Assembly (NCBI GenBank): GCA_008729055.1
Contig: SDUX01000007.1
Coordinates: 5,873,009 to 5,937,008 of the forward strand
Length of the DNA stretch: 64,000 nt
From: Pyropia haitanensis
Lineage: Eukaryota > Rhodophyta > Bangiophyceae > Bangiales > Bangiaceae
Reading direction: 5' to 3'
Shown piece after piece: positions 3 through 25,726 of the stretch. The position numbers and the translations under genes were made by a program. The notes beneath the pieces were generated by a model. The model saw only the letters and a list, made by a program, of their open reading frames with translations, did not search any database and was not told the origin of the DNA. Every line of letters begins with the position of its first letter. The first letter of the stretch is position 1.

Positions 3-665
3 GTCTCGGGCTGTGGCCGCGTGCGGACGCGCGTCGACGTGCCGCCACCAGCGTCTGAACTCCTCCGTTTTGCGCTGGCGGCAATGGCGGAGCCTGCCGG
101 CGACAACGCGCCACGGGTGCGGCCGGATGTGGTGACGTTTGTGGACGCTGCTACGACGGCAGCGGCGACGCCCGCGCTGACCGCGGTTGGCATTGAGCCG
201 CAGACACTGTCGCTCGCCGATGGCGTCGCTGAGTATGTGGCGTCGCTGTCGGCCAAGATGGTGGAAAAGGACACGGCCGCGGTTGGCGACGCTTCGAACC
301 ACCCGGGGCTGCTCCGCACCCCTGGAATCACCGTGTCCGTGCTGCGGTCGCTCCACGACTCGGCGGCCGCGATGGCCACGGCGCGGCCATGGCGGGTGCT
401 CCCGGAGAGCATCGCGCTGCGGTTCACGACCCTGAACGGCCGCGTGTACTATGTGAGCGTCTTTGGCTCGGACGGCGACGCGACGGGCTTTGTCGCCGCC
501 CCGTCGCTGGTCGCGCTGCAGGCCAAATTCACTCGTGCCACGGGGCGGGGTGTACCCGTCTTTGGCGAGGGGGAGGAGCTGCCTGCGGTGTATGGGGGTG
601 AAGTGGTGACTTGCGCGGCGTGCGGTCGACGGCTGGCGGAGCGAGGGCGGACGCGACGGCTTGCA

Positions 666-698
<33 letters not shown>

Positions 699-1346
699 GC
701 CACCGCCCCCGGCGTTGACGGCGGCAACGTGTCTGACGGCGTCGGCACAGACGGCGCAGATGGCGACCGCGACTCGCTCGTTGACCGCTGCTCCCGCTGC
801 CATGCAGTCTACTATTGCGGCCCGGCGTGCCAGGCACGCGACTGGGCGGCCCGGCACCACGCAGAGTGCACCGACGCGGAGGCAGGCCCGCGGCTAGCCG
901 CCCGCCACGAGGCGGCGTGGACGCGGCGGGAGCTGGCGCTTCTCCTCTGCGACCCGACGGCGGTGCCGTTTGACGACCTCGACGCGGTCGCTGAACACGG
1001 CCTCGCGTCGGTCGTGGGCGACCCGGACAAGCCAGTGTCCGACGGCGGCGGCGTCCTCTACCCCGTCCCGTTTGTCACCGTGGCCCAGGTGGGGGCGGGC
1101 GCCGCCGGGGCGGCTGGGGGACCCGCGCCGTCGTCGGCGGGCAAGGCCAAGCCGGGGGTGGACCGCCCGACGCTGTCCGAGATTGAGTTTCTTGACGCCG
1201 CCGCCCGCGCGCTGGCCGAGCTCGACGCACCCCCGTCGAGGGGGATGGAGGTGGCCGCCCAGGGGCTCCGCATCTGCGTGGAGCGGAACATGGCGGCGGG
1301 GGCGGCACCACCGGTGGTTGAGGAGATTGATGTGACAGGCTCGTGA
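3..1346 (+). CDS. MYND zinc-finger protein, 3' part
   Basis: The frame is open from the window edge, so the 5' end lies outside; the first in-frame GTG at 21 is not a credible start. Counted from there, about 441 residues remain and end at a TGA. Cysteines near residues 198/201, 257/260 and 266/270, then His279/280 and Cys283, match the MYND finger (CxxC...CxxC...YC..xCQ.xDW..H..xC). MYND fingers bind two zinc ions and mediate protein-protein contacts. The finger is unusual: about 55 residues, including a poly-Ala run from a GCG array (665-695), separate the first CxxC pair from the rest. The region before the finger, about 190 residues, is globular-looking but not recognised. No SET domain is visible, so a SMYD methyltransferase is not supported. 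Confidence 0.75.
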
Positions 1347-2302: not shown

Positions 2303-2867
2303 GAGCACATCCAGCAACGTCGGGACCAACGGTTAAATAATTCATTTCAGCGAACACGTGCGCGCTTCTGGTTGGATGCCCATTTCTGTTGGGGCGTGCC
2401 CCAACCGGTCTTGCAGGACTTGTATAGAACGGGGCGCAGACTAGCCGAAAAGGCGGAAGGATGGGTTCACGCCGGTGGGAGAACAAAGACCCAACCCCAT
2501 TCCTCGAATGTAGCTTCAAATCGGGATCAGAGAAGCAGCTGGGATGCGAGCCCGCGATCGTCCACAGCCACGTTTCAGTCACCCCATTGGTCCGATTTCG
2601 TTTCACAGGTCGCCAACAGGATGGGGATGGTCCCGCTCGCTCCCCATTCGCGCACAAAATGGGGCGCAGGAGAGACCAACCCCATCCTGCGATCCGAATA
2701 TGCAGAGTACTTACCAAAAATATATGAATCAGATTCGTCATATATGGCCTGCCGTTGGGGCGTCATGTGGCCGTTTGTATTGACTGCTGAGCGTTCGAAC
2801 CCCATCCAGGAAATATGAGAGCCACGTGTACGTATTCGCGACCATCCTGGCATTGTTGGATGTGCTC
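2303..2867. mobile_element. MITE with 3-bp TAA target duplication (PIF/Harbinger-like)
   Basis: The ends are imperfect terminal inverted repeats of about 20 bp. The left starts GAGCACATCCAGCAACG and the reverse complement of the right starts GAGCACATCCAACAATG. Each end is flanked by TAA (2300-2302 and 2868-2870), matching the TWA target duplication of PIF/Harbinger elements. The 565-bp body has much lower GC than its surroundings and no transposase frame. It sits just beyond the 3' end of the Fanzor-like gene. Confidence 0.8.
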
Positions 2868-3051
2868 TAAGCTTACCGCTGTGGGGGGACCGACCCCTTG
2901 GTAAAAACCCTCGCACTCGCAAAGATTCTCACCCACAGTGATAATGAACCTCCGACGATTGCCCGCGTTGCGGCTCGTCGGAGAGGGAGGGGCCGCTGCA
3001 ACGGCCAGCCGCGGGGGGCGCCCCGCGTGAGTACCGCGGTGTTGAACCGTC

Positions 3052-6000
3052 TCACGCGTGGGGTGCCTCCCCGCCACCAGCCGCCGCCGCGCCGCCCCCC
3101 TCCCCGCTCGCCGCGACCAGCGGGTCCGCCGCTGCCCCGCCCGCGCCGCGCCCATCCGCCGCCCCGCCCGTGCGGCCGTTCCAGTCGATCCGCGGCCACC
3201 GTACGTGGGCCGCGGTCCGGAACGGGTGGCACGGGCGCCCGCGTATCCACTGCCACGTGCGCCAGCCGAGGTTGGCCGCCGCCGTCACGTCGCGGTTCAC
3301 CATCCCTCGGGCACACGTCGGCTCCACGCAAACCTTGACGCACCACACCACTGCCTTGCGGTCCGCCCGAAAGACCGGGCCCGCGTGCGGCCGCGGGTGT
3401 GCAGCCGCCCGTGCCGTCGCGGCGTTCTCCGCCTCGGCGCGGCACGCCGCCCGCCGGCGGGCGTACCGCACCGGCGCGCTGCGGTCCCACCACCCGCGCT
3501 GCACGCCGCTCGGCCGGCCGGTGCGGCCGCGCACGCCACGGCGCCGCCCGCACATGCGCGTGCCGCGGGGCACTTGCGGCGGAGACGCGGGCGTCGGGAA
3601 CACCAGCGCCAGCCGCGTGTGGCAGCCGTCGCAAGCTGCACTCGTGTTGCGCTCGGGCACGTCCACCGTCCAGCACAGGTGGCGCAGGCGCCGCCACAGC
3701 TGCGTCGCCCCGCCGCGTGTCGCCGCGTCGCCCAGCGCCACCGCCACCACCGACCCGTTGACAACCCGCCGCAGACGTCCGCCCGTCAGCTCCCGCGCGA
3801 CGCGCGCCGCAAACCGCCCGCGCTGCAGCACCCCGTACAGCCGCGCCTCGCGCAGCCCGCGCGTCGCCGCCGACCCCCACACCGCCTCATACACGGGCTT
3901 GCAGCGGGCGGCCAGCCACTCGCGTGACGCGACTCGCACCGCTTCCGCGTCGCCCACGCACAACGTCGCGCGCTCCGTCACCTGCTCGGGTGTCCGCACG
4001 CCCGCGGCATCGCCCAGCTCGGCGATGCGCGCCACGGCCGCCGCGCGATGGTCGGCTACCGCCCGCGTCGTCATCCCATTCCCGCTCTCCTCGTGGTACC
4101 GCCCGCGCGACAGGCTGTACACCGCCCCGGGGGGGGGGGGGCGCGCCACCCGCGGCTCGCGCGCGTCGCCGCACGCACTCGCGCCGCCAGTGCCCTAAGC
4201 GCACCGGCGTACGTACCCGCGGCCGCGCGGTCGGCCGTCACTGCTGCCGCGCGGTCCGTCAGATACGCCTCCGCCAGCGGACGCCCGTCGTCCACGTCTG
4301 CCACCGCCATGCCGCGCGTCGCGCGGGGCAGGCACGCCAGCGCAACTCGCACCGCCGCGTGGCGCGGCACCCGCCACCTCCCGCGCCCGGTTGCCGCCAG
4401 CAGCTCGCGTAGCGCCTTGCACAGGTCGACGCGAGCCGTGCGTCGCAGGCGCCGCGCGGCGCCGCGCACGCGCCGCACGCACCGGCGACCTGAACGCGGC
4501 GGCATGACCGCGGCTGCAGCAGCGGGGGGGGGCAACGCGTCTGTGCTGCCGGCGGCCGCCGCTCCGCCGCGTGGCCGCTTCCTGTCCGCGCCAGACCCGG
4601 CACCCACGGCTTGGCGCTTGCCAGCGGCCGCCTTGGTGGCCACGGCGGGGGGCGTCCCAGCTGTCGCCGCGGCCGCCGCTTCAACCTCCGCCATCTGGCC
4701 CTCTGTCAGGCCGGCCGCAGCGGTGACTCCAGCCTCCACCGCCAGCGCAGCGCGCATCAGCGCCTCAACCGCGACCAGCCTCGCTCGCGCGCATCGGGTC
4801 GCCCACACGCGGCTGCGGGCCGCCCACTGAGCGGCCGTCGGGCCGCTTGACACGGCCGTCAGCACCGTGGCTACACCAGGGTCCGCCGACACCACAGTCA
4901 GCCGCGACACGCCAGCCACGGGGCAGCCTTGTTTTTCTAGCTGCGTGGTGGGTGACCCCGCGACCCGCCGCCGCACGCGCGCCCCATCGCGCCGCCGCTT
5001 CGCAGCAGCAATGTCCGCAGCCTCGGCTTCTGCAGGCGTCGCCGGCCGGGACACCGTAAAGGCCACCGCCACGCCGTTGGTAGTCAGGTTCGCCCCGACA
5101 GAACGCGTTCCGCTGCCGATCGGCCGGCCGGGCAGGCGCGCAGCGAACGCGGCCGCGCCACGGTCCCGCACCGCGGCGCGGAAAGCGACGTCACCAACGC
5201 GCAGGGAGTTTACCAAACGGGTCAGGCGCAGCCGCGTAAACGTGCCGTACATGTGCAGCGGCGCGGACTTGGCGGGGACCAACGCGAACGGGCGGCGGAT
5301 GCCCTCGCGTTGCACGGCCACGACAAAGGGGACGTATGCCCACCAACGCGCCACGACAGCGACGTGGCCGCCCGTCGGGAAGAGGCGCGTCGGCCGCTGC
5401 CTCACGGGCTGCACGCGCGCGCGTATCGCAGCGATCGACGCCAGTACCGCCGCGCGCGCCGCGGCGTCCGGCACGGCAGCGACGAACTTTCTTGCGGCTG
5501 CCCCGGTCGGCTCGTCGACGCCACGCGAAAAGCACCTCAGAGCTGCTGCAAACACTCCTCGGCGTCCGTCGCTGCCGCGTGCGCCCACGGCGGGGGGGGC
5601 CGCGTCAGTCACGGCGCCCGCCAGGCCGCGCAGCGCACGCGTCACGCGCTGCGCCGTCGTCTGCGCCAGCCGTGTTACGGTCTGCGTCCACCGCATGCGA
5701 TCGTTATTGCCCGGAAGGTGCTCGTGGCACGGAGAGACGAGGGCAGGTGATAAGTCCCTCAGCGCCATCTCCGCCGCAGCAAGAAGCGTGGGCGCCGCAC
5801 CGCGCGGCGGCTTGGCGGGTGGTGGGGGGGGGGGGTCAGCAGCCGTGTGTATGCAGGGCGACTGAGCCGGTGCTCGCGAGCCCGCCCACACGTTCCGCAC
5901 ACATCCTCCCCGGACAGGCTCCCGCCGAACGCGCCACGGCAGCTGACTGCGTTCGACGCCCAGTTCCAAAAGTCCGTCCACCCCTGCGTCGTTGCCGGCA

Positions 6001-7057
6001 GTGCCGCGTCCCACGCGTCCGCACCAGTCGCCGGCAGCAGTCGGTGAACCGTGTTGACCCACAACAGTCGCAGGCACAGGTCAAAGTGCGTGGCATGGCG
6101 CGCCACCGCCTCAAATGCCGCCGTCAGGCCCGACGCAGCGGCCGCGTCGCCAGGCGCAGGCGCCACCGCGCGCACAACAAACCCCAGCGGCACCGTCACG
6201 GTGTGCGTTACCGTCGCGCGGTTGGCGTACGGATCGGTTGCCGCCACGTCCTCGCCCCGATCGTGCACATGCGGGAGGGACGCGCCACCCCACGCCCTGG
6301 CCGGGCACACCTTGGACCGCCTCGGGTGCGTGCGGCCGCAGCAGTTCTGGCAGGGGGGGGGGGTTGTGGGCCGGCCGGTGCCGCTGCGCGTCGCGGCTCC
6401 GCCTCGACCGAGCGGCGGGCGAGGCCGCGCGCCGTCGGGCCGACCAGCGCAGCCGCCCGCACCGCTCGGGCGGCCAGCCGTGACGCGTCGACGCCGTCCG
6501 GCGCGTGCGCGGCGACCCATTCGGCTGCAGTGGTCACCGCGGCGGTCACAGCTTCCTCGTCGCGGGTGGCCATGTCAACGACCGCCGTGCGATGCGCCAC
6601 GTCCGTGGTGGCGTCGGGGGGGGGGGGGGGGGGGGGGGGCGTCCACCACCGCCGCGGCTGTGCGCAGAGCGGCGACGACCGTGTCGAGGGTGGCATCGCC
6701 TGGGGGGGGGGCGCGCGCCCGTGCCACAGCCTCGACGCGCGCCAGAAGCAGCCGCAGTCGCCAGCGTTTCACGCGCAGCGCGGCCAGCAGCGAGTCTCGC
6801 TCGTCGGGCGGCAGGGGGGGCGCTTCCTGCGCGTCGCCACCCGCCGCGTCCGAGCCCTCGTCGGTCCCAGCAGTTGACGCGTCCGACGCCTCGCTCCACG
6901 CAGCAGCATCCTCGTCGTCGTCGCCGACACGGACGTCGTCCTCTGACGCCGTGGCCGACGCGTCGCCGCACGCATCGTCGGCGTCCAGGTCGGAGCCGTG
7001 CTTACCTGCGGCATCGTCGTCCTCCAGCGTCGCGCTCGACGCCTCTGTGCCGGGCAT
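3052..7057 (-). CDS. Fanzor-type (eukaryotic TnpB-like) RNA-guided nuclease homolog
   Basis: The minus-strand reading runs from ATG at 7057 to TGA at 3052-3054, about 1330 residues. The frame changes at G tracts 6616-6639, 5824-5835 and 4129-4141; a shift at 6353-6363 is also implied. In order: an acidic N-terminus, a CQNC-type cysteine/histidine cluster, a helical region, a PFALVP segment, and RuvC-I as SADPGVAT (Asp codon 4881-4883). A YSLSRGRYHEESG segment follows, then the finger start ERNTSAACDGCH with a conserved Glu, and RuvC-III as NRDVTAAANLG (Asp codon 3289-3291). This order is diagnostic of Fanzor proteins, which descend from transposon TnpB and cut DNA guided by an RNA encoded near the ORF. 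The Glu just before the finger fits the relocated catalytic Glu I recall for Fanzors. Whether the gene is intact depends on the true tract lengths. Confidence 0.82.
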
Positions 7058-7520: not shown

Positions 7521-7521
7521 T

Positions 7522-8517
7522 AGAGAGTTTTTACTGCGCGTCCGTGAGATCGTTTGTGAGAACGATTCAGCTGTAATGGGTTGTCAGCCACGGCGAGGCG
7601 AACCAAGCGTCACACTGGTTTTTACAACGCGACCGTGAGATCTCTTTGTGAGAACTCCTTGGAATGAGGATTGCCTTCAATTTCTCCGCACGCTGGGCCC
7701 CCGCCGGCCCCACCCCTCATGACCACACGCTCCGCGCCAGTATTCCCGCCGCCTGTGTGCACAGCGCCGGCGGCGACAACGATGGTCGCCATCCGCACTC
7801 ACACTCTGCGCTTCTGGCGCGCTCGACGGCGCCGCCTGAGGGTGGCGCTTCTAGCTGGTCATGCGATGGATTTGGCCATGGTCGACATGTCCCCTCTCGT
7901 CGAGGCCTACAGAAGAGCCCATCGGGAAGTCGCGCTCTCTTTGGCCCGGTCTCGACGAGTGACCGCTGTACGCTTCAACATCAACTCGTTCTCTTCGTCG
8001 GAGGCGTTGTCCCTCTTTCGTTTCCTCCCTTCTGACATTGGGCGCTTGGTGGATCTGTTGCACGTGGGAGACGCTGTGAGCTTGACTAGATATGCCATTA
8101 CACCTGTGGAGTGCCTCTGCATTGTTTTGAGACGCCTTGCGTCCCCTGCGCGATGGTTTGACCTGGACTCGAAGCCTAGGCGCGGAGGGTAAGCGCTGCG
8201 TGGAGCACAGCAGGGTGCTGGCATGGACAGGCGCAGAAGAGCGCGGGACAGCGCCACAAGAGGCTGGCCCGGGGCGGCGCAGCCCACAGAGTAAGTGTGC
8301 AACAAATGCCCTCTCAGGCGACACGTGTGCAACTTAGGGCAGTCTAAGAGATCTCACAAATACTCTCGGTCCGTGACAACTCACGCCGTTCTTGTCACGG
8401 ACTCATCTCACGTGAGATCTCTGTGAGATCGTTTTGGAGGTAGTAGCCCCCTTTCTGTAAAGAATTTGGTGCCACGTTGTCACAAACGATCTCACGGACG
8501 GGTTGTAAAAACTCTCT
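7522..8517. mobile_element. Decayed Harbinger-like DNA transposon
   Basis: The inverted ends match over about 38 bp. The left begins AGAGAGTTTTTACTGCG and continues TCCGTGAGATCGTTTGTGA; the right end is its reverse complement with few changes. Flanking ATT (7519-7521 and 8518-8520) is the likely 3-bp target duplication, although a TA reading is also possible. A second copy of the terminal motif lies at 7617-7655, and related GTGAGATCTCTGTGAGATC motifs lie at 8413-8431, as subterminal repeats. The interior keeps only the N-terminal part of a transposase, so the copy is not autonomous. Confidence 0.78.
7779..8192 (+). pseudogene. N-terminal fragment of a Harbinger/DDE_4-type transposase
   Basis: The frame is about 138 residues from an internal ATG and can be extended upstream to 7671. 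Near the end it contains LFRFLPSDIGRLVDLL, then TPVECLCIVLRRLASPARWFDL. That pattern (FRF..di.rL, then a LCILLRRLAYP-like motif) is typical of the helical region before the catalytic domain in PIF/Harbinger-like transposases. No DDE domain follows before the right terminal repeat at about 8476, so the fragment cannot be an active transposase. The start codon is uncertain. Confidence 0.6.
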
Positions 8518-8520
8518 ATT

Positions 8521-10220
8521 TTTTTGGCCCGCGGCGTGGGCGCACGCCAGGAAAAAAACCCGGGGAAAAAAAACCTCTGGCAGTGGCCATCCGCGCGACA
8601 GGGCACCTCCTTCTGCATTTTTCTGATCGTGGGCGCGGCAATCCTCGTCCGAAAGGGCCGCCAGGGCATGGCGTCACGGCCCCCTCCAGGCATTTTTCGG
8701 GCCAGTGTCGGCCGTGCACCACGGGCCAGTCCCTGCCGCCGCACTCCCCCCCTCCGTTTGGCGCCAGCCCCCATCCACCCGTCTGTGTGCTTCGTGCGCG
8801 CCCCCGCCCGGATGCGCCCGCCATCGTCACCCTCGGTCGGGCGCGGGCGCCGCGCGGGCGGCGCCGCCGCTGGCGGTGGCGGAGGCGCCCCCATACTCCA
8901 CTACCGTCGCCGCCCACAGCGACCGCCCGGCGGCGTCCGCGGCGGCGGGCGTCCTCCTCGCCCCCCCCCCCCCCCCGCGCCCGGCACGCCCGCCCGCACC
9001 GCCCGCACTGCCGTGGCGCCGGCGCGGGGGCGGCGGGCGGCGCCGCCCGCCGCCGCCGCCGCAGCGGCGCCCGCGCCACGGGCCGCGTCGGGTGGCGACG
9101 CGGCCGCGCGGCTGCCCGCGACGCTGCGTCGGCCCCCGACGGTGCGCCAGCCGACCGGCAGGTGGGCGGTGGCGGCGCGCGCCGCACGCCTGCGAAGGCG
9201 CACGCGGAGGCGCCTCCACCCGCCCGCTTTCGTCATCTCACCGCCGCCCCCGCCGCGCACGTCGCGGCCGCGCACCCCCGCCACGCCCGTCGCTGCGGCT
9301 GGCCCGCTGCGAGGCGCCGTCGCCGCTGCCCCGCGCCTTCGGGCGACGCGAGTGCGGGCGGCGACGTCCCGCCTGCCACGGTGGCCGCGCCATGCACCCG
9401 CCGCCGCCGCCGCCGCCGGGCGCGCAGTGCTGCCTACCGGCCGCCCCCCCGGCAGTGTCGGGGACCGCTGCGGCAGCGGCGGCGGTGTTTGCGGGGGTGG
9501 CAGCGCACTTCCACGCGCGCGTCGCCCGCGCGCACGCCGCGCGGTCGGCGGGGGCGGGCGGGGGCCGCCCGCAGCGGGGCCGGCGAGGGGCGGCGGCGGG
9601 AGCGGGGGGCGACCCCGCCTCGGCGGCGCCCCCGGCCCGCCCGCCGCCGCCGACGCCGCGGCCGCCGGCGCGCCGGCCAGCCTGGACGCCGCGTCCCGGC
9701 GGCTGCGCCGCTGGCACCCAGACGTGCGGCGGTCGTTGGGCACCCCGTGGGGGCGGCTCTTCTCGGCAGAGGAGGCGCCGGGGTCGGAGAGGGGAGGTGG
9801 GGGGGCTGCTGCCGGCGCGCGCGGCGGGCGACGTCGCACCGCCGCCTCGATGGCGCTTTGTGTGGCTGTGTTCCGGGGGAGCCCTTTCTTTTTTGTCTGT
9901 TGCGCCTCTGATTATGCCGTTGGGGCGGTAGTGTTTCGAGGTTGGGGAGTGAGCCTGGTTTGGAAGTCGCGCACGTGGCGGCCGGCCGGCCCAGCAGCGG
10001 GAGGCGCAGCGGGATGAGGGCAGCGGGATGAGGGCCAGGTCCAGGGCGAGCCCCGGGTCCAGCGCGTGGCCGCCGTCGACCGCGGCAGCGGGGGGGGGGA
10101 GAGAGAGCGCCGCCCCCGTCGCCGCCGCCGCCGCCGCCGCCGTCACGCGGGCCGCCCCGACGCGGGCCGCGGTGCCGCGGGCGGGGCGGCACCGCCGCGA
10201 GCGGGCGACCGGGCGGCCGC
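8521..10220. other. GC-rich region left of the rDNA segment, coding status unclear
   Basis: Long open frames exist on both strands, as expected at this GC content. The most protein-like plus-strand reading starts at ATG 9392, with a proline-rich start and an Ala-rich segment that could be a membrane anchor. It may continue in another frame to about 9830 (SRRLRRWHPDVRRSLGTPW). No family is recognised. The region ends at a GCGGCCGC sequence (10213-10220), directly against the 18S fragment. Confidence 0.25.
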
Positions 10221-11640
10221 ATTGGAAACCAACAAAATAGAGCCCAAGTCCTATTCTATTATTCCATGCTCACATATTCAAGGCATTGACCTGCTTTGAA
10301 CACTTTACTTTCTTCACAGTAAACGGTCGGCCCGCAGGTATAAACGCGCGGAACCAGTCAAGGCCCCACACACCGCGTCCCGACAAAAGGAGACAAACTC
10401 CCACTGGCACAAGGGCAGAAGCCCGGCCCGTGAGGGCGCTCCGAGGTCCGACTACGAGCGTTTTAACTGCAACAACTTTAATATACGCTATTGGAGCTGG
10501 AATTACCGCGGCTGCTGGCCATTCATACCCGACAACGCTGCGCCCATAAGACGCTTGGTCGCCTTCCACAGTCCTCCGGGGCGAGCAAAATCCCGTTACT
10601 CCTGTGGACCTGGTATTTTTCCCAGTGGATTGGACTCTCCTTTAAGCTTGCGCCCACTCCATTAGAGTCTCTGAAGGTTCGCCTTTGCATCTCGCCACGC
10701 GGCCACCAAAAGGAGGCCGCATGGAAAAAGCACTCGCGCTTCCCTGCGGATCAACCCTACCCTTGACGTTTTTACCATCCATGTACCACTACGTACACTG
10801 CTGCGTCCTGAACGATTGCTCGCTCTCACCTTTCGGCGGACCGCGGTAGTCAAAGGCCTGGCGGGCACTCCCCGACAATTTAGAAGTGTATGATGGGGGC
10901 TCATTGATTCTCCCAAAAGAAAATAGGTTCCCATCTTTTGCCTGCTTGCCTTCCACAACTCACCCTGCTTCCGGAAAGAGACATCTGGCGCTGTTTTATT
11001 TTAACGACGGCTTCACGCGGTGCGCCTGTGCATACGATCCGAGCACGAGGCGAGCAACGAGTGGAACTAGGTTCACCAGACTTGCCCTCGAATGGATCCT
11101 CGATAAGGGATTTAAATTGTTCTCATTCCAATTAGAAGGCCCAAAGGGCCCCCTATTGTTATTTTTTGTCACTACCTCCCCGAGTCGGGATTGGGTAATT
11201 TGCGCGCCTGCTGCCTTCCTCGGATGTGGTAGCCGTTTCTCAGGCTCCCTCTCCGGAATCGAACCCTAATTCCCCGTTACCCGTCGACACCATGGTAGAC
11301 CAATACTCTACCATCGAAAGTTGATAGGGCAGAAATTTGAATGAGCAGTCGCCAGCACAAGGCCATGCGATCCGACAAGTTATTGTGAATCATCTCAAAG
11401 CGCTCTGGAAGGAGCACGATGGTTTTTTATCCAATAAATACCACCCTTCGTGAGTCGGGCGTTGCGGCATGTATTAGCTCTAGAATTACTACGGTTATCC
11501 AAGTAGTGTGGTTCTCAAAGGAACTATAACTGTTTTAATGAGCCATTCGCAGTTTCACGTGTATAAAAGTGTTTATACTTAGACATGCATGGCTTAATCT
11601 TTGAGACAAGCATATGACTACTGGCAGGATCAACCAGGTA
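10221..11640 (-). rRNA. 18S (SSU) rRNA, 5' half only, interrupted by a group I intron
   Basis: The minus strand starts with the universal eukaryotic 5' end TACCTGGTTGATCCTGCCAG at 11640. It runs colinear with nuclear 18S through CAGCAGCCGCGGTAATTCC to the segment GGAATAATAGAATAGG and on to TTTGTTGGTTTCC at about 10222. Exon 1 is 11075-11640 (566 nt) and the part of exon 2 present is 10221-10519 (about 300 nt). The remaining half or so of an 18S gene is absent: the sequence switches at 10220 to GC-rich DNA. The remnant cannot make a complete rRNA, so it is a truncated rDNA copy, a break caused by insertion, or an assembly join. Confidence 0.93.
10520..11074 (-). other. Group I (IC1-type) intron in 18S at E. 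coli position 516
   Basis: The 18S text breaks after CAAGTCTGGT and resumes with GCCAGCAGCCGCGG; removing 555 nt restores the conserved rRNA. The 5' exon ends in U and the intron ends in G, as group I introns require. Near the 3' half, TTCAGAGACTCTAATGGAG followed by AAGGAGAGTCC corresponds to the conserved P3/P7 core (R and S elements). No homing-endonuclease frame is visible. Group IC1 introns at this site are well known in Bangiales, which is the main lineage clue in this window. Confidence 0.88.
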
Positions 11641-13934
11641 AATAGGTACATGTACTTTGAGGGAAAAAAAAAAAAAAAGGGCGGGAGAGCCAGCCACGCG
11701 ATGGGCGGAAAATGTCAAAAGGGCAATGCATCAGAGCCATCGCAGGCGGGGCGGCACTTCCCTTGGTTTTTTTTTTTTCTCTTGTACCAAGTCGCTGGCA
11801 AACGGCAGGGATGTGCCTATATTGCAAGGCAATCCACGTGCGCCGTCGCCCGCGGCACATCTGCTCAGGCATTTCCTCCTTGTTGCAGGTGCGTCTTTTT
11901 TCCGTACAAAAATGATGGATCGTGGGGTGGGCCAGCAGAGGCCGTTGTCTTGGAAAATCCGCGCGTGACCCCACGACGGGTTTCGTAACGGCGCACCTTT
12001 GCTCTCTGCTGAGTTTTTCTTGGCGGTTTTTTTTTTCTTCCCGCGCTTTTTTTGCCCCTTTATCCCCCCCCGCGCCATCCCAGCATAGTCAATGCCAACC
12101 GACGAGCGGTCGACAGGTCACTTGTGTGAGGAATCTTCACACTTGTTCGTTATTTTCCTTCCTCTCCAGTCGAACCGGATGGTACTGCGCAGTCCCCCCA
12201 AGTACGAGAGACTGTGCCGACTACTTTGTGAGGACCCCCCCCCTGTACCCCCACCGCCCGTTCCCGCCACCAAAAAAAAGGTAACGGTCGGGTTTGTGTG
12301 TGGGGATGGCGGGAGACAAGCCACTCACTCAGAGACGTTTCTTGAGGAGGCCGCCCTTTTTTTCTTATAAAAAAAAAAACGGGCACTTCCCCAAGGTATG
12401 TATGCGAGGTAAAGGCGCGCGGAGTGAGCGCCAAAACCTCTTCCATTGTTTTGTCATCAACTGGAAGGTGTACCCCCATGGCAAAACGTTTTTCCCCAAA
12501 CAAGGTCGTAGCATGGATAGAGGAGCAAGCAAGGACTTTTTTTTGTCCCCCCCTTGTCCTGTACCTACTCATGCACTCCGCGTATATATGTGCACCTCAT
12601 ATATACTCTTAGAGCCTCAGGCTGTTTTTTTTTTTTGTATCAAAAAAAACACGCCAGGCTTGATACCGTCGAAAAAAAAAAAAAAGAGGCCGCGCGAGTC
12701 TCAGACAGATGATCTTCTCAAGCTTTATCGGCCAGAGCCCAAGCCTGGAAACACTAAATAAGAACAGACAGGAAAAAAAAGGCCCCAGCCGGCGTTCCTC
12801 CCAAGAGTGGAACGTACACAATACATCATGCGGCTTTCAGGCGAACACCCATGTGAGTGGCGAAGCTCACACTCTGCATTCTTACGCAAGGGCCCCGCCT
12901 CAAGAAATCATACGCTCTAGCTAGGAACTTTTGTCCCTGCCTGCCTTGCTTATGCCAGACCCAGCTCTGGTCTTTTGCTTGGGAAAAAAGGGACTTCCCT
13001 CCCTGCTCCCTCTTTCGACATGGAGAAAAACTCCCGTTCGGTGCCCTGGGCTAAGGAGCACCTTGAACCAGGCCGTCCACCCGGGAAAAGAGATGGACGG
13101 CGCCTCAGAAACATAAAAGAAAGGACCCCTTTGCGCTACACGGAGATATGTCCATAGACGGGGCTGCGACGATACGACGCCCTCCAAGGGAAACGTTAAC
13201 GCTTCAATATGCGGATTGATACCACAGCCAAGGACTGTGATAGCGCGCCCGCTACAACAAATGATACCACGCCCCGGTAGGGGGTCGAGCAGAGCTCCAG
13301 AATATTCCCATAGACCGTCACGGGTAAAGATGCCGAACACCACAGGAACGCACAACTTAAGGATTTCGGCATGGCTAAGCAGCCTCCTCAGAGCGGCACT
13401 TGGGGAGGGGACGCCACCCTTCAACCCGCCAGCTCCCCCGTTACAAAAAACGGCACAACGGTGGTACACCTATCCTCCGTATAACAATACCCCGGTTCCT
13501 ATGGAAATAACCCCCTTTCTCATAACGGATAGGCTTATGGCGAATCTCCGCGTTACTAGTATACAGCCTTAGTATACGTTCAGGGGGCAAGCGCTTTTTT
13601 CGCAAACCATCAAGACCGGCTTGTGATATCATAAGGAGACCCGGTTTCCCCAATTCTTTCGTATCGTCCCAACGGACAACCGTCAATGAGGCGAGAAAGG
13701 CAGACGGGTAACCAAACCCCTCCCCCGTTTCTCATTCACGACGGGTGCCCTACCACAGCTTGGGGCATTTCTACAAGAGCCCCCTTTTTTTTTGCCCAAC
13801 GAACCCCAACCCAAGCGCAAAAAAAGGGGGCGCACACGTGCAGTGGTCTGGTACCAGCGTTGCACTCGTATAGGAAGTCAATACGGAACGATACGGACGG
13901 GTCCACAAGGTCATGACGACGGCCTGAGGTATTT
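11641..13934. other. Spacer upstream of 18S (external transcribed spacer/IGS), no gene
   Basis: This lies directly 5' of the minus-strand 18S gene, so its proximal part should be external transcribed spacer. It is rich in A, T, G and C homopolymers of 8-15 bases. The frames present are short and show no protein character. No rRNA promoter can be assigned from sequence alone. Confidence 0.55.
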
Positions 13935-14440
13935 TTTTTTTTCCCACAGCGCCTGGTGGGGAGGTGAGCGGACCAATGGAACCTTACTACCAAACCCGCA
14001 TCCAGACAGTGCGGAAAAAAAAAAAAAAGTACAGGGCGTCCCCAGAGGCTTGCGTCCATCCGAGAAAAAAGGGCACTCATAAGCTGGCGCGAGCGACAGC
14101 GCGCACCCTCTTCCCTTTATCCAACCGACTGGTGGGGAGGTGAGCGGACCAAATATGGAACCTTACTACCAAACCCGCAATCCATGTCGACGGGACAAAA
14201 GTCCAAGGGCGACCCCGCCTTGCGTCCTCATTGGAGTACCCTTTTTTCTATGAAAAAACACTCATAAGCTGCCGCCACCGCGCGCGCCCTCTTGTTCTTA
14301 TCCAACCGACTGGTGGGGAGGTGAGCGGACCAAATATGGAACCTTACTACCAAACCCGCAATCCATGTCGACGGGACCAAATCCAAGGGCGACCTGCGTT
14401 GCGTCCTCATTGGAGTGCCGTTCTATAAAGGCCTTCCGGC
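13935..14440. repeat. About 180-bp tandem repeat, three copies
   Basis: The motif CTGGTGGGGAGGTGAGCGG recurs at 13953, 14129 and 14310 (spacings 176 and 181). Each copy is followed by GGAACCTTACTACCAAACCC, then GCGTCC; in copies 2 and 3 ATTGGAGT also follows. The second and third copies are closer to each other than to the first. Duplicated spacer promoters are known in rDNA spacers and would fit the position, but this is inference. Confidence 0.8.
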
Positions 14441-15133
14441 GTTACTTGCACCACGCGGTTTCCATACCCCGCTGTCCCCCCCCACACCGCTCTTTGTTAT
14501 CCCAAAGAACAAAAAAAAGCGAGGTGGAGGGAGCAGACATCACAAAGGGGAGGTATGCCTTTATGGATTTTCCTCTCAGTATATAGAGAGCACAAAAAAG
14601 GCATACCAACGCATGCCCCAAAGGGGGGGGGGGTTCAGCCACCACACGAGTGGGGCCGAGTCGCCCCCTCCCCCTATGGGAGGACCACACGTACTGTTGA
14701 GGCCAACTCCGGATGGTCAGGCCGGAGAGCAAGGGCATAAAATCCCCTACTACTATGTGCGCCTCTGAGGAGGGGCGGTGGCCATAAAAAGCCGCTACCC
14801 CGCCTCCAATACGGGGCCCCTACTATGGTTGTTTCGGGTCAAGTGGGAGGTCACCCCGTGGCCTAGAAACCATAGTAGAACATGCCAGTAACAGTGGGGT
14901 CCGCCAGGCGGAAAAAAACCCCTATCAAAATCGGCCCAGCGGGCAGGCGGGAAGCCATCCCCGGGCTCCTCCAAGGCGCCCCCTAGGTCGGGAAAATGGA
15001 GGGCATAGCGGTCCCTAGGCTGGTAGCCTACTACCATAGGAAAAAAGCCGGTCTGAAATGGCCCCCTAGGGGCCTGAAACGTATATTCATACTATATCGG
15101 GTAGACGACTGATTACAGCCGACGGCGCTTCAG
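14441..15133. other. Spacer, no gene seen
   Basis: Moderate-GC sequence with scattered GGGG and CCCC runs and no convincing frame or structured RNA. It joins the 180-bp and 153-bp arrays. Confidence 0.5.
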
Positions 15134-16040
15134 AAGCGCAGGTGGGGGGGTCCCCCACCCACCGGTCTTGGACTCCATTCTGATAGAAAAGGGGTCTCTA
15201 GGTCGATACCAAACGGTCCCATACCAAACTTGGCCCTTGGGGCCAAGCTATCGCGGTCTTGGCTTCACCCCCGTATACTCGTATACCAATGAAGCGCCGT
15301 CGGGGGGGTCGGCCGATTTCCGACCTCAGATACGTTTCTGACTAAGAAAGGGTCGCTGAGTCGATACCCGCAGTCCCCGTAGCAAACGGAGCAACAGGGC
15401 CAAAGGTATCGCTCGGTAGGGAACCGGTCGTATTCCTACCAGGAAACACCCGTCAGGGGGGGTATTCCGATTCTTGGGCTCAGATGCGTTTCTGACTAAG
15501 AAAGGGTCGCTGAGTCGATACCCGCAGTCCCCGTAGCAAACGGAGCAACAGGGCCAAAGGTATCGCTCGGTAGGGAACCGGTCATATTCCTACCAGGAAA
15601 CACCCCTCAGGGGGGGTATTCCGATTCTTGGGCTCAGATGCGTTTCTGACTAAGAAAGGGTCGCTGAGTCGATATCTGCAGTCCCCGTCGCAAACGGAGC
15701 AACAGGGCCAAAGATAGCGCTCGGTAGGAATCGCTCATGTTCCTAGAGGAAACACCCGTCAGGGGGGGTATTCCGATTTCCAACCTCGGATGCGTTTCTG
15801 ACTAAGAAAGGGTCGCTGAGTCGATATCTGCAGTCCCCGTCGCAAACGGAGCAACAGGGCCAAAGATATCGCTCTGTAGGAATCGCTCATGCTCCTAGAG
15901 GAAACACCCGTCAGGGGGGGGTCTCCGATTTCCGACCTCAGATACGTTTCTGACTAAGAAAGGGTCGCTGAGTCGATATCTGCAGTCCCCGTCGCAAACG
16001 GAGCACCAGGGCAAAAGATAGCCGGGGTGGAAGAAAACAC
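15134..16040. repeat. About 153-bp tandem repeat, five copies
   Basis: The motif GTTTCTGACTAAGAAAGGG recurs at about 15334, 15488, 15642, 15794 and 15945 (spacings 151-154). Each copy continues with TCGCTGAGTCGATA, a CAGTCCCCGT segment and GGAGCA-CAGGGC. A G-rich CCGTCAGGGGGG or CCCTCAGGGGGG end separates the copies. A diverged sixth copy begins near 15180. Confidence 0.85.
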
Positions 16041-16744
16041 CCCTCAGGGGGGCTCCTGCATATGTGAAACACCATCCTTCGTGATATCGGGTCGCAAGAC
16101 CGATCATCAAAATCTCGTATGAAAACGACCCCCGTAGGGGGGGATACCAGTGAAGCGTATCCCTTATGCCAACATGGTCCTGAGGGGGGGGGGGACATAC
16201 CCCACCCTATGCATACGGGAGCCTACCCCGATGCTCGACTATCGTCCCTGGTACATGCGTTTTCCTGAGGGGGGCACCCTCTCTACTGGCGACCCCCCCC
16301 CTCAGGATGGTGCTGAGGTATAGAAATGAGCTATGCCGCCGAGGCTATGCCGAGGGTGGGTAGCTACGAAAAACCATACCAAAACATGCTCCTGAGGGGG
16401 GGGGCCGCTCCACGACGGCTATGCCCCCAACAGTGAGGCGGGGCGGCCGCGACCACCCCCCCCCCCAAACAGGCCCAGGAACGCAGGTTGACCAGACCAT
16501 GCGTTTCCCGGGCCTGAGGGGGGGTGGGGGCTGCCACGGCAAAGTCGATCCGCCGACCGACCACCACCTGTCCTCATAGTCCTGTGGGCCCGTTCATACA
16601 TGACGCGGCCAAGAGGCACAGTTACCGGTCGCCGGAATGGCGGCCTCTCGTGCGTCCTCAGGACCCCCCCTGACGGGGTCAAAAACGAACCCGGGGATAG
16701 AGAACCGGCGTTACCGGTGTCTTAGCCGTGGAGAGGCCTCGGTC
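16041..16744. other. Spacer with repeated CCTGAGGGGGG motifs
   Basis: CCTGAGGGGG or its complement occurs at about 16171, 16263, 16303, 16391 and 16512; a related TCCTCAGGACCCCCC lies near 16657. No gene is seen. The motif resembles the G-rich end of the neighbouring 153-bp repeat. Confidence 0.55.
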
Positions 16745-18560
16745 GCATTAGCGCCGGGCTGAAATGAAATGGAGCGCATTAAGATGGGATAGGCGTGATC
16801 AGAGTGCAATAGGGGACCATTAGGCCCACTTAAGGCGCATTGAGGGCGATTAGGGACCCATTAGGGGTCATTAGGGGGCCTTAGGGGGTGGTTTAATGAA
16901 TATTAGGGGGGTTAAGAAGTATTAGGGCCACTTAAGGGTGGGTTAGGTGGGTTAAGGGTGGGTTACGGGTGGGTTAAGTTAAATTAGTGTGAGTTAAGAT
17001 GAGATAGGCGTGATCAGAGTGCAATAGGGGCCTATTGAGGGCCGTTTAAGGCAAGTATGCACCAGTTAAGTCGCCCAATTCAACATATTGGGAGGTTTAA
17101 GCCGCATTAGGGGTCATTAGGGGTCATTAGGGGTGGGTTAAGGGTGGGTTAATGAAAATTAGTGGGGGTTAAGATTGCTAAGGGTGGGTTAGGTGGGTTA
17201 AGGGTGGGTTACGGCCACTTAAGGGTGGGTTAATGAAAATTAGGGTGAGTTAAGATGAGATAGGCGTGATCAGAGTGCAATAAGGGCCTATTTAGGGACA
17301 TTAGGGCCAAGTATGTCCCAGTTAAGTCTCCAAATTCAACATATTGGGAGGTTTGGGACCCATTAGGGGTCATTAGGGGTCATTAGGGGTGGGTTAAGGG
17401 TGGGTTAATGAAAATTAGTGAGGGTTAAGGTTGCTAAGGGTGGGTTAGGTGGGTTAAGGGTGGGTTAAGGGTGGGTTAAGGCCACTTAAGGGTGGGTTAA
17501 TGAAAATTAGGGTGAGTTAAGATGAGATAGGCGTGATCAGAGTGCAATAAGGGCCTATTTAGGGACATTAGGGCCAAGTATGTCCCAGTTAAGTCTCCGA
17601 ATTCAACATATTGGGAGGTTTGGGACCCATTAGGGGTCATTAGGGGTCATTAGGGGTGGGTTAAGGGTGGGTTAATGAAAATTAGTGAGGGTTCAGGTTG
17701 CTAAGGGTGGGTTAGGTGGGTTAAGGGTGGGTTAAGGGTGGGTTAGGGCCACTTAAGGGTGGGTTAACGAAAATTAGGGTGAGTTAAGATGAGATAGGCG
17801 TGATCAGAGTGCAATAAGGGCCCATTTAGGGACATTAAGGCCAAGTATGTCCCAGTTAAGTCTCCAAATTCAACATATTGGGAGGTTTGGGACCCATTAG
17901 GGGTCATTAGGGGTCATTAGGGGTGGGTTAAGGGTGGGTTAATGAATATTAGGGAGGGTTAAGGTTGCTAAGGGTGGGTTAGGTGGGTTAAGGGTGGGTT
18001 AAGGGTGGGTTAAGGCCACTTAAGGGTGGGTTAACGAAAATTAGGGTGAGTTAAGATGAGATAGGCGTGATCAGAGTGCAATAAGGGCCCATTTAGGGAC
18101 ATTAGGGCCAAGTATGTCCCAGTTAAGTCTCCGAATTCAACATATTGGGAGGTTTGGGACCCATTAGGGGTCATTAGGGGTCATTAGGGGTGGGTTAAGG
18201 GTGGGTTAATGAATATTAGGGAGGGTTAAGGTTGCTAAGGGTGGGTTAGGTGGGTTAAGGGTGGGTTAAGGGTGGGTTAAGGCCACTTAAGGGTGGGTTA
18301 ACGAAAATTAGGGTGAGTTAAGATGAGATAGGCGTGATCAAAGTGCAATAGGGGCCTATTAAGGCCAATTCCGGATGATCAAGGCCCATTAAAGGCCGTT
18401 CAGGTAGAAGTTAAGATGATTAGGGGCACATTAGGAGAAAGTTAGGTGAGTTAAGGGCCATTAGGGGTCATTAAGGGTGGGTTAAGGCACATTAGGCCGA
18501 GTTAGGGCGCATTAGGGCCACATTAGGGCCATATTAGGGGTGATTAGGGTGATTAAGCCC
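16745..18560. repeat. TTAGGG-like tandem array, 266-bp unit
   Basis: The array is built from degenerate short words such as GGGTTAAGGGTGGGTTA and CATTAGGGGT, organised into higher-order units. The marker GATGAGATAGGCGTGATCAG recurs near 16786, 17000, 17254, 17521, 17789, 18055 and 18321. The inner spacing is 266-268 bp; the leftmost copies are shorter. The G-rich strand is the plus strand. Near 18360 the array frays into irregular TTAGG-like words. Confidence 0.9.
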
Positions 18561-19404
18561 CATTTAGGGCCCTTGGGGCCGTACGAAGGCATTTCGGGGG
18601 CATTATGGGGTCATTTTAGACGTTCTAGACACCCCTGAGGTCGTTTTTCGCGCTCTACAACCCTATAGACCCCTCCCTGGCAGTCCAGTTGGCCCCCACC
18701 TACCCCGCCTTAGGGCTCTACCCGCAAAACCCCCCTCCTAGGGGGGTTCTGGGGGGGGTCCCCAGGGACCCCCAAACGACCGGGGGACCGGTCCAACCGG
18801 GGTTTCCGCCATCGTGCATCCCACTGAGGAGCCCTCCATCGGTTTTGTCGAACCCGACTTTATGGGTTGTGTTGGTACGTGACATGAACGACAACCGTCT
18901 GCCTGTCTTCTGCAATAAGACACCACAAGGCACCATGTCAGGGCTCAGGAGTGACCAATTTACAATATTCAAACCAAAACTTGGTCAGGGCAAGTCGATG
19001 GTGCCCATCCACTGGGAAAGCAAGAAAATCGGTGTGCAAAGGTCTGGAACGCCCGTTATGGCACCGTAAAGGCGTATACCCCCGTTTTTGGCACCTATAC
19101 GGGCCTTGCGTTGCCGCATGATGTCCGATGCTGACCGGATCTGGCATGGAGGTCCGTACAGGTCATGCGCAGAGGGTACAGGCATCAGATCCGGAAACGG
19201 ACACGATCCCGAGTCACTGTGGGTGGAGATATACCGCAAATGGGCCATATTGACGCTTCCACGCCAAGTACTAGACGAGGTGATAACCGTTCGACACGGG
19301 AGTGCGTGCATCGGACGCGCCGTTGGACGAGGATAATTTGATGTCCAGAAAATTTGACTTGGGACGTGTCTTTGAGGCCTAATAGAGCGACTTCTCCTCT
19401 ATTT
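18561..19404. other. Unique segment between two TTAGGG-like arrays
   Basis: About 840 bp of ordinary composition separate the arrays. A strong hairpin sits at 18730-18750 (AACCCCCC and GGGGGGTT arms). Open frames up to 126 codons occur, but none shows a recognisable domain. It could be an insertion or part of the spacer unit. Confidence 0.5.
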
Positions 19405-20957
19405 CCCTTAAATTAAGGGTTTTTAGGGCCATTAAGGGGTCATTAGGGTGCATTAGGGCCGCATTAAGGGTGGGTTAAGGCGACTAAGGGTGGGTTAAGG
19501 GTGGGTTAGGTGAAATGAATGTGGTATAAGGAGCATTAGGGAGGATCAAGAGCCCATTAGGCCTCGTTTTAAGGGCAATTTCACGATTAAGTGCCTGTTT
19601 AGCGTCATTAAGTCTTCAGTAGGGCCTCATTAGGCCACTTAGGGGAGGGTTAAGTAAAAGTTAAGGTGATTAGGGGTATATTAGGGAGATTAGGGGGTGG
19701 TTAGGTGGGTTAAGGGTGGGTTAGGCGTGGGTTAAGGTCGATTAGGTGAAATGAATGTGGTATAAGGATCACTAGGGAGGATCAAGGGCCTATTAGGGCC
19801 GACTTTAAGTCCAAATACGCAACTAAGTGCGTCTTTAAGGCCATTAAGGCCCCATTTGGGCCACATAAGGCCACTTAGGGGGCGATTAGGCTTAACTTTA
19901 AGATATTAGGGGCACATTAGGGTGATTAGGGGGTGGTTAGGTGGGTTAAGGGTGGGTTAGGGGTGGGTTAAGGTCGATTAGGTGAAATGAATGGTGTATA
20001 AGGATCACTAAGGAGGATCAGAGGCCGATTAGGGCGCATTATAAGTCCAAATCCACAACTAAGTGCCCGTTTAGGCTCATTAAGGCCCCATTTGGGCCAC
20101 ATTAGGCCACTTAGGGGGAGATTTGGTTAAAGTTAAGGTGATTAGGGGTACATTAGGGTGATTAGGGGGTGGTTAGGTGGGTTAAGGGTGGGTTAGGGGT
20201 GGGTTAAGGTCGATTAGGTGAAATGAATGGTGTATAAGGATCACTAAGGAGGATCAGAGGCCGATTAGGGCGCATTATAAGTCCAAATCCACAACTAAGT
20301 GCACGTTTTAGGGTCATTAAGGCCCCATTAGGGCCACATTAGGCCACTTAGGGGGAGATTTGGTTAAAGTTAAGGTGATTAGGGGTACATTAGGGAGATT
20401 AGGGGATGGTTAGGTGGGTTAAGGGTGGGTTAGGCGTGGGTTAAGGTCGATTAGGTGAAATGAATGTGGTATAAGGATCACTAGGGAGGATCAAGGGCCT
20501 ATTAGGGCCGACTTTAAGTCCAAATACGCAACTAAGTGCGTCTTTAAGGCCAGTAAGGCCCCATTTGGGCCACATAAGGCCACTTAAGGGGCAATTAGGC
20601 TTAACTTTAAGATATTAGGGGCACATTAGGGTGATTACGGGGTGGTTAGGTGGGTTAAGGGTGGGTTAGGGGTGGGTTAAGGTCGATTAGGTGAAATGAA
20701 TGTGGTATAAGGATCACTAAGGAGGATCAGAGGCCGATTAGGGCGCATTATAAGTCCAAATCCACAACTAAGTGCCCGTTTAGGCTCATTAAGGCCCCAT
20801 TTGGGCCACATTAGGCCACTTAGGGGGAGATTTGGTTAAAGTTAAGGTGATTAGGGGTACATTAGGGAGATTAGGGGATGGTTAGGTGGGTTAAGGGTGG
20901 GTTACGCGTGGGTTAAGGTCGATTAGGTGAAATGAATGTGGTATAAGGATCACTAGG
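19405..20957. repeat. TTAGGG-like tandem array, 236-bp unit
   Basis: The marker GGTGAAATGAATG recurs at 19509, 19745, 19981, 20217, 20454, 20690 and 20926, a regular 236-bp period. The units use the same GGGTTAAGGGTGGGTTAGG vocabulary as the 266-bp array but with a different higher-order sequence. The last unit is cut within CACTAGGGAG at 20957, where very GC-rich coding DNA begins with no transition. Confidence 0.9.
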
Positions 20958-21984
20958 GAGCCTTCCGCGCGACGGCGCGCCACCCGTCGGCGGGGCCCGC
21001 CCCCCCCCCGCCCGCGCGCCCGGCGCCACCCCCGCCTCCAGCGCCGCGAGGCCGGCGGCGGCCAGCGGGCGCCCGCCGACGGCCGCCCCCGCCAGCACGT
21101 CCGCGGCGGCCGCCACCGCCACGCCACCGCCGCCCCGGCCGCCGCCACCGCCGCCGACGCCGCCGCCGCGGGCTGCGACGGCCGCCAGGGCGGCGACCGC
21201 CGCGGCGGCGGCGGCCACCGCGTACGCCCCGTCCGCGGAACCCGCCGCCACCACCGCCGCGACGGCGCGCAGCGACGCCGCCACCGCCGCGGGCGGCGGT
21301 GGGGGCGCCCCCCCCGCCGCCGCCGCCGACCGCGCCACCGCCGCCGGCAGCCGCAGGTCCGCCCCCGCGTAGTACACCACCGGCGCGAGGGCGTCGGCCC
21401 AGGTGGCGGCGGCCGCCGCCGCCGCCGTCGCGCCCTCCCCCCCCCCCCCTTCCCCGCCGCCGCCGCCGCCGCCGCGCGGCGGACCAGCGCAGGCAGCGCG
21501 GCGGCGCCGGCGGCGGCGGTGGCGGCGGCGGCGGCGCCCCCCCGGGGCGCTCGCGCCAGCACCGCGGCGGCGAGCGCCGCCCACGCGGCCCCGTCGGGGG
21601 TGGCGGCGGCGACCGCCACGCGCGGCACCACCGCCGCCACCCGCACGGCGGCGGCGGGCGGCAGCGCCGCCGCCACCGCCGCCGCCGCGGGGGCGGCGTC
21701 GCTTCCACCGCCGCCGCCGCCGCCGACGCCGCCGTCGACGCCGCCACCGCCCGCCGCCGCCCCCGCCGCCCCCGCCCCCGCCCCCGCCGGCAGCAGCAGC
21801 GCCGCGACGAGGCGGCGGCAGGCGGCGCCGCCGGCGGCGGCGGGCGGGGCGGCCGCCCAGGCGGCCGCCCAGGACGCCACCGGCGCCGCGCTCACGAGCG
21901 GCGACAGGTGCGCCCCCGCCGCCACGAGCAGCGCCGCCGCGCGCGCAAGCGGCGGCTCCCCCGCGCCCGCCGCTACCGCCGGTC

Positions 21985-22023
<39 letters not shown>

Positions 22024-22770: not shown

Positions 22771-23090
22771 AGGGTGAGGCAGGCAGGGGGGGCAGCGGGC
22801 GGCAGTGGCGGCGGTGGCGGGGGCCACGCCTGTGAGTCCCGGGGCGCGGTGGGGAGTGGCATGGTGGTGCACGCCAGGGGAGGGTGAGGGGCCGCTAAGC
22901 AGGGGGCAATGGGGGGAGACGCCCCCGCGCTCCGCCCCGCCGCCGCCGCATGCCAGTGGTGATGCCGGCTGCGGCGGCGGCGGCGCGGCGCGAGGTCGTT
23001 CGCGGCGCGGCGTGCGTCGCCGGCTGGGTGGCGGCGCCTGTGGCTGGCGGTGGGGGCGCAGCCGCCGCCGTGAAAGCTCGCGCGGTTGTA
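22771..23090. other. Intergenic GC-rich stretch
   Basis: No gene is recognised. It holds the upstream side of the truncated alanine-rich gene and ends at the TA target site of the mariner element. Confidence 0.4.
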
Positions 23091-23177
23091 CAGTTCGTAC
23101 CCAATATTACTTGCCCACCCTGGCGGGTCACTTTTTGCACCTATTTGACCACGGACGAGATCCAAAAAGCGGCCTCA

Positions 23178-23734: not shown

Positions 23735-23794
23735 TCAGCGGTGCCGCTCTGGCCCATTGCAGTCACTTGGGCGCAGCGTCGCGGCGCACGGTGC

Positions 23795-23800
23795 TATAAA
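23795..23800 (+). promoter_or_regulatory. TATA box of the mariner transposase remnant
   Basis: TATAAA lies 50 bp before the ATG at 23850, which leaves room for a 5' leader of about 25 nt. The placement fits a Pol II core promoter carried by the element. Confidence 0.5.
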
Positions 23801-23849
23801 GAAGCGCCCATTGCTTCTCTCCCAGGGGAGAAAAAAAAAAAACAACACC

Positions 23850-24309: not shown

Positions 24310-24407
24310 TGCGTTTCTTGCAGTGGAAACGGACGGTCGCGACGCGTCAAAATAAATATCAGGATCTGACAGTTGGGGTGGGCAAATAATATTGGATACC
24401 AACTGTA

Positions 24408-25724: not shown

Positions 25725-25726
25725 TA

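Follow-up and report, generated by a model that had tools for sequence, protein, structure and literature searches.

At positions 3052-7057 on the minus strand of the 64,000-nucleotide stretch of Pyropia haitanensis DNA analysed here (the window) lies a gene that an earlier note took for a Fanzor-type RNA-guided nuclease homologue. We found that this gene forms the 3'-terminal cargo of a transposon with two defined ends, and that the RuvC-I motif, the start of the zinc finger and the RuvC-III motif described in that note are present on the minus strand, in that order. The gene and its motifs are as follows.

3052-7057, minus strand: Fanzor-like nuclease gene, whose reading crosses four C-tracts at which the frame shifts
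4889-4875, minus strand: RuvC-I motif SADPG with the catalytic D (motif reading)
3660-3622, minus strand: RuvC-II glutamate and first CxxC of a TNB-type zinc finger, VPERNTSAACDGC (motif reading)
3330-3289, minus strand: second cysteine pair and RuvC-III NRD, CVEPTCARGMVNRD (motif reading)
6352-6305, minus strand: N-terminal CCHC-like CxxC...H...C cluster, CQNCCGRTHPRRSKVC (pattern only)

A loose pattern for the TNB finger plus RuvC-III, devised after the sequence had been seen, matched once in the six-frame translation of the window, nowhere in the reversed window and in none of 100,000 shuffles of the C-terminal piece. The D of SADPG, the E of PERNTS (or DEHNSS) and the D of VNRD are conserved in the related families A, A2 and B, where the first D and the E lie 408-449 residues apart, the E and the second D 120-121, and the D and the [TS][TS] pair about 410-451. 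All three catalytic motifs are also present in family C, although in one member (L033) they are spread over two frames. The cysteine pairs take the forms CxxC and CxxxxC in A and B, and a second pair of the CxxxxC form is missing from P0002 and family C. The N-terminal cluster, earlier proposed as a possible added domain, is indeed present at the level of a pattern (families A, A2 and B have C-x2-C-x4-H-x6-C, and family C has two CCHC-like clusters), its single zinc-knuckle match in Pfam being to P0007 with an E of 4.8. Ratios of nonsynonymous to synonymous substitution rates (dN/dS, by NG86) were 0.22-0.26 between A and A2, 0.43-0.47 between A or A2 and B, 0.44 within A2 and 0.61 between B and C. 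As judged by sequence comparison, the catalytic and zinc-finger motifs are under purifying selection in A, A2 and B.

The C-terminal piece of the gene matches at least 40 places, window included, in the 52.9-Mb genome, a lower bound because only the best candidates were scored. Family A comprises the window copy and the copies C11, C40 and C9, which are 99-100% identical; identity to the C-terminal piece of the window falls to 84-89% in A2, ∼75% in others, 56-57% in B and ∼40% in C, and the A and B proteins are 46-57% identical. Five relatives are open without introns, measuring 1,531 (L039), 1,396 (L040), 1,556 (L041), 1,440 (L043) and 1,381 (L031) amino acids from stop to stop. In a large protein database, where scoring was limited each time to the 8,000 candidates with the most words in common, the named matches came from Pyropia yezoensis only. 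One database protein, P0008, has a C-terminal tail that resembles what we take to be a translated sequencing adapter.

The length of ∼1,330 residues given in the earlier note holds for the read-through, which joins five frame pieces at four C-tracts; no single frame of the window reaches it. The breaks fall on the minus strand at 6639-6616, 6363-6353, 5835-5824 and 4141-4129, in tracts of at least 11 C each. When tract lengths were compared across four copies (window, C11, C9 and C40, in that order), the first break tract had 24, 29, 17 and 24 C, the second 11, 12, 11 and 12, and the third 12, 13, 12 and 11; the fourth had 13 in all four. Four shorter tracts of 7-10 C were invariant across the same copies, a fifth (7105-7098) being located in the window only and so outside the comparison. 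P0004, a separate database protein of 733 amino acids, is 99.0% identical to the window read-through over its whole length and is open across the fourth break tract, and the sister copy C11 carries pieces 1-4 in one frame of 1,108 amino acids. Because three tracts vary among copies and both C11 and P0004 are open, the frame breaks may be assembly or copy-specific errors. Introns were ruled out as the source of the frame changes: every change lies inside a C-tract, and relatives are open there.

Comparison of copies placed the ends of the transposon, as well as two of its nested insertions.

2872-26507, minus strand: whole transposon copy including nested insertions, with sharp ends and differing flanks among the copies read
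26470-26507, minus strand: left (5') end, GAAGCTACACTCATTCGACGTGGGGGGACCGGCACCCC, which by eye can form a hairpin (compared in 12 copies, each with a flank of its own)
2872-2897, minus strand: right (3') end, GGGGTCGGTCCCCCCACAGCGGTAAG, a hairpin plus an inverted repeat of the left end (copy comparison)
7521-8518, no strand assigned: 998-bp insertion bounded by inverted terminal repeats of 44 bp and missing from the sister copy C11
23092-24403, no strand assigned: 1.3-kb insertion, absent from the C40 copy

Subtracting these two insertions and a 10.7-kb insert of ribosomal DNA (rDNA), described below, leaves by arithmetic an element core of ∼10.6 kb. The left end was read in 12 copies, from among 18 places that carry the repeat in its left-end form: 11 of the 12 match at GAAGCTACACTC, the other (L082) differing there in some bases, and in every one a purine comes directly before. 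The left-end sequence contains a repeated GGTCCCCCC, and an inverted repeat, GTGGGGGGACCG, is common to both ends and lies ∼20 nucleotides inside the left one. A-type right ends stop at GGTAAG and are followed by differing flanks. Of the 20 ends that fit the pattern, 16 have C as the following base, a count that leaves aside L054 and L061 (C next in both), L024 (which ends GGTATG) and L028. The joint end pattern gave 55 listed matches, some of them repeat listings of one place, against none in the control, and by our own count there are ten facing left-right pairs, 3.7-131 kb apart, the window pair included. No left end was found for family B, and inspection by eye revealed no target-site duplication in nine copies with both flanks or in the tenth pair (L073/L056). 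Pfam detected no domain in those upstream frames that were examined. Two Helitron_like_N places occur in the genome, and the exact end motif is near neither of them, although diverged ends would escape an exact pattern. Truncation of the element at its 5' side, at window 8758 or 10220, was ruled out: C40 resumes past a large insertion, and its sequence beyond that point matches window 20965-26507.

We also examined the 3' end of the gene, where two further features are proposed.

2872-3057, minus strand: candidate omega-RNA scaffold, 186 nucleotides from the stop codon to the last element base (conservation and comparative folding)
2852-2871, minus strand: predicted guide stretch of the window copy, the flank beside the right end (by analogy with Fanzor/TnpB biology)

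Starting at GCGTGAG, within which the stop codon TGA lies, and continuing to the last element base, the sequence has long blocks conserved between families A and B, although the proteins of the two families have diverged to the extent given above. The window sequence 2872-3060 folds with a z of -3.76, and the last 101-114 nucleotides of five distinct 3' ends gave z values of -6.71, -2.49, -3.41, -4.91 and -1.89; a hairpin followed by a three-way junction is predicted in three of the five (window, L012 type and B). In an alignment of 10 of the 20 distinct 3' sequences, the consensus structure has 47 counted pairs, with 95.0% of 462 cells paired and changes on both sides in 11 of the 47. The structure as RNAalifold returned it had 55 pairs, 13 with double changes, before eight pairs in columns 40-67 were removed for the count. 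None of 500 shuffles reached the value of even one of five structure measures, and slid versions of the structure were 39.5-51.8% paired; because the structure was derived from the same alignment, this support is flattered. About nine pairs exchange G-U for G-C or A-U, a pattern that points to selection at the RNA level. The motif TCTCCGACGAGCCGC...GTCGGATGTTCA was matched in 34 further places in the genome (backward control 0), the window's own copy, with one mismatch, being outside that count; ∼10 of the 34 have no match to the C-terminal piece apart from fragments (ten read). A search of Rfam with the 3' RNA returned only one match, on the opposite strand and below the gathering score (E 0.035). 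We regard this 186-nucleotide covarying structure, kept between families, as a strong candidate for an omega-RNA, for which the flank would serve as guide.

TnpB and Fanzor proteins use a 3' RNA and the adjoining flank as their guide. By analogy, the 3' RNA of the window element would be transcribed and bound by the nuclease as omega-RNA, and the flank next to the right end would be read as guide. The nuclease might then cut matching DNA, such as the empty site left after excision, and such cutting could favour retention or spread of the element. Transposition itself is assumed to be carried out by a separate helper enzyme, perhaps of the Helitron type.

Profile searches back the Fanzor/TnpB assignment weakly. 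PF07282, the Cas12f1-like TNB profile (cut-off 26.3 bits), had its best match in the relative P0002 (E 0.001, 19.6 bits, below the cut-off), with further sub-cut-off matches in family C (E 0.023), family B (0.044) and P0005 (0.073), and in two of the seven members of set A1 (best E 0.16). A typed TnpB consensus retrieved TnpB, Cas12f and similar chains from the PDB, with no Fanzor-named chain among the matches listed. Pfam and NCBIfam searches with single frame pieces gave nothing useful, nor did a search of PHROGs, and a pattern search of viral_contigs matched 58 stretches, none of which was confirmed.

Overall, the ordered catalytic and zinc-binding motifs, the transposon location and the RNA-like end structure make a Fanzor/TnpB-like nuclease the best reading of the protein. 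We consider it very probable that the window element is one copy of a large red-algal DNA transposon family whose 3'-terminal gene would encode a divergent Fanzor-like RNA-guided nuclease. Several results count against this interpretation. PF07282 matched neither the window piece nor P0004 nor P0007, its search of the whole genome returned no match, and no protein examined had a Pfam match over the cut-off. Sequence searches of the PDB with the pieces, A1, A3 and P0002 found nothing, or unrelated chains with a best E of 0.45. An AlphaFold2 model of P0004 from seven sequences did not resolve the fold (predicted local distance difference test, pLDDT, 37.5; predicted template modelling score, pTM, 0.27). 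The distance from D to [TS][TS] exceeds the 125-275 of the published Fanzor motif, as given in the available portion of PMC3627910; the long spacing is due to a low-complexity stretch after RuvC-I. The family C pair L033/L032 has a dN/dS of 1.12, and the window copy, as assembled, has a broken frame. Among the five 3' ends, two (L024 and L057) are predicted to adopt other shapes and two are weakly structured, 4 and 9 of 200 shuffles folding equally well. Given TNB scores below the cut-off, an unresolved fold and a D-to-TS spacing beyond that of the published motif, we describe the protein as Fanzor-like and divergent. The homology claimed in the earlier note is thus partly supported: the motifs, the location and the 3' structure speak for it, without clear backing from the profile and fold checks that the note named (the profile reached relatives below cut-off and missed the window piece, and the model was of low confidence). 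Of the order and spacing that the note called correct, the order holds, and the D-to-TS spacing is longer than in the published motif.

These weak profile scores, the failed fold and the long low-complexity stretch between RuvC-I and the remaining motifs could instead mean that this is a transposon protein which contains RuvC but falls outside the TnpB/Fanzor clade, or that it has lost nuclease activity. We regard this as highly improbable, given that all three catalytic positions are kept in A, A2 and B, that the finger sits in the TNB position with an NRDxxAAxN context, and that the gene adjoins a structured 3' candidate RNA. That structure might in turn be a mere transposon end, to whose DNA hairpins an enzyme of rolling-circle or Y1 type binds, and no guide RNA: hairpins and inverted repeats lie at both ends of the element, and the ends of Helitron2 and IS200/605 use hairpins (PMC3627910, in the portion available). 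However, at 186 nucleotides the conserved part exceeds the length of an end hairpin, it overlaps the stop codon as well, and the ∼nine pairs that swap G-U with G-C or A-U also argue for an RNA, so that we think a mere transposon end improbable. A far more serious possibility, to which we give slightly less than even credence, is that the window copy is a decayed relic whose frame shifts are real. The four shifts in the assembled copy, its nested insertions and the equal length of the last break tract in four copies all fit decay, whereas the open frame of C11 over pieces 1-4, the variable length of three break tracts between near-identical copies and the open reading of P0004 across the last break speak for an intact gene.

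The remaining alternative concerns the rDNA that lies within the element.

10221-20965, minus strand: rDNA fragment of 10.7 kb, the 5' part of 18S and then upstream rDNA with tandem repeats (beyond 18S, putatively spacer)
10220-11637, minus strand: 5' part of the 18S rRNA gene, broken at 10220 (Rfam match at 10480-11637 and comparison with other rDNA copies)

The resemblance to rDNA copies elsewhere in the genome continues as far as 10220, at which point element sequence starts. The 18S part at 10480-11637 probably holds an intron, because its 1,158 nucleotides span only ∼600 model positions. C40 has 373 bp in place of the rDNA. C11 has the same 18S-side junction as the window and is similar to it, with gaps in the tandem repeats, as far as window 21129 (the end compared), and its element flanks differ from those of the window at both ends; the shared junction and different flanks fit an element that moved with rDNA inside. 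The rDNA could also have entered by ordinary recombination at rDNA, the shared copies being segmental duplications rather than products of transposition with cargo. Other rDNA copies in the genome are likewise interrupted, at other 18S positions, and C9:4233623-4364394 has two ends 131 kb apart with several rDNA matches between them, both of which suit recombination; the junction and rDNA shared by the window and C11 to ∼21129, with flanks differing on both sides, do not, and we judge recombination rather less likely than not. The 18S gene as insertion target of the element was ruled out, as the window rDNA sits between two element parts. As separate observations, the family B copies L045 and L047 (C131 and C11) likewise adjoin 18S sequence on their upstream side, the junction falling at a different position of 18S. 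At L049 (C40:150500-153500) 18S is interrupted following ACACACCGCCCG; judged by eye, the GC-rich sequence that interrupts it might encode C2H2-like fingers of the kind found in rDNA-specific long interspersed nuclear elements.

Immediately beyond the right end, at 2302-2868, lies a 567-bp miniature inverted-repeat transposable element (MITE) with the terminal inverted repeat GAGCACATCC and a TTA duplication (by eye). Because it begins 4 nucleotides from the right end, the predicted guide consists mostly of the MITE terminus. The terminus pattern has 90 matches in the genome, where both ends of one copy can match, and none in the control; at C11 and C9 the same MITE has also inserted into sequence resembling 18S. 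That its landing redirects the nuclease is speculation. The most far-reaching interpretation would be a double-sized Fanzor lineage, so far from Bangiales only, with an added nucleic-acid-binding N-terminus, a 186-nucleotide omega-RNA and a transposon that captures and moves host rDNA, in which the MITE beside the right end rewrites the guide to a sequence present in dozens of places and so reprograms the nuclease; taken together, we judge this unlikely.

Elsewhere in the window, 35220-40000 has three other full copies at 100% identity among the matches listed and is probably a recently active element. Two transfer RNA matches of equal score lie in opposite orientation at 34411-34497 (minus) and 43074-43160 (plus), and an open frame at 3-1346 (plus) has what we take to be a MYND-type zinc finger pattern.

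The open relatives, supported RNA scaffold, exact ends and predicted guide for each copy make this a red-algal Fanzor-like system whose activity is therefore directly testable. It would also widen the range of size and architecture of the Fanzor-like nuclease group and tie the group to an rDNA-containing element. No literature joining Fanzor with Porphyra was found, within incomplete coverage, and red-algal terms were absent from PMC10711439. A red-algal Fanzor, CMe-1A of Cyanidioschyzon merolae, and an algal Fanzor with Helitron2 ends are nevertheless already known from 2013, according to the available portion of PMC3627910. A Fanzor in a red alga is thus not new in itself, although the size does appear new. 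Within the same literature coverage, so do the N-terminal CCHC-like motif, the anatomy of the element with its rDNA, and the RNA backed by comparison of copies.

As far as that portion of PMC3627910 (Bao and Jurka 2013) describes them, the Fanzor1 elements CRe-1, CRe-2 and CRe-3 of Chlamydomonas reinhardtii are of the Helitron2 type and resemble the window element in being algal elements with a Fanzor-like gene, terminal hairpins and inverted repeats, no transposase of their own found and many partial copies. In contrast, the five open relatives here lack introns and the protein is ∼2 times the usual size; no TTTT target or target-site duplication was seen here, and the exact end motif is not near this genome's two Helitron_like_N places. 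Helitron2 elements are marked by hairpins with short asymmetric inverted repeats at either end and by a RepHel helper that shares those ends; the window element has hairpin-like sequences at each end, but its repeat lies ∼20 nucleotides inside the left one. CMe-1A, the Fanzor1 element of C. merolae, is likewise red-algal, in many copies and without classic terminal inverted repeats; compared by description only, it is ∼3 kb against our core of ∼10.6 kb (same portion of PMC3627910).

The studied Fanzor1 (Fz1) proteins, in the parts of PMC10432273 and PMC11423790 available, share with ours the order of a D, an E before the zinc finger and a D, with the finger in the TNB position, and take their RNA from the transposon end, where our candidate RNA also lies. 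Most Fz1 proteins measure 600-700 amino acids, whereas the read-through here measures ∼1,330 and adds the N-terminal CCHC-like motif (same parts). The catalytic residues of SpuFz1 from Spizellomyces are D383, E541 and D606, with spacings of 158 and 65 as opposed to 408 and 121 here (PMC10432273, in part). The E of Fz, TnpB and Cas12a has the fifth strand on one side and the TNB domain on the other, a placement that the E here matches (PMC11423790, in part). Finally, PpFz1, with its Fanzor RuvC Insertion domain, also carries an insertion within the RuvC domain, of ∼100 ordered residues there and a longer low-complexity stretch here (PMC11423790, same part).

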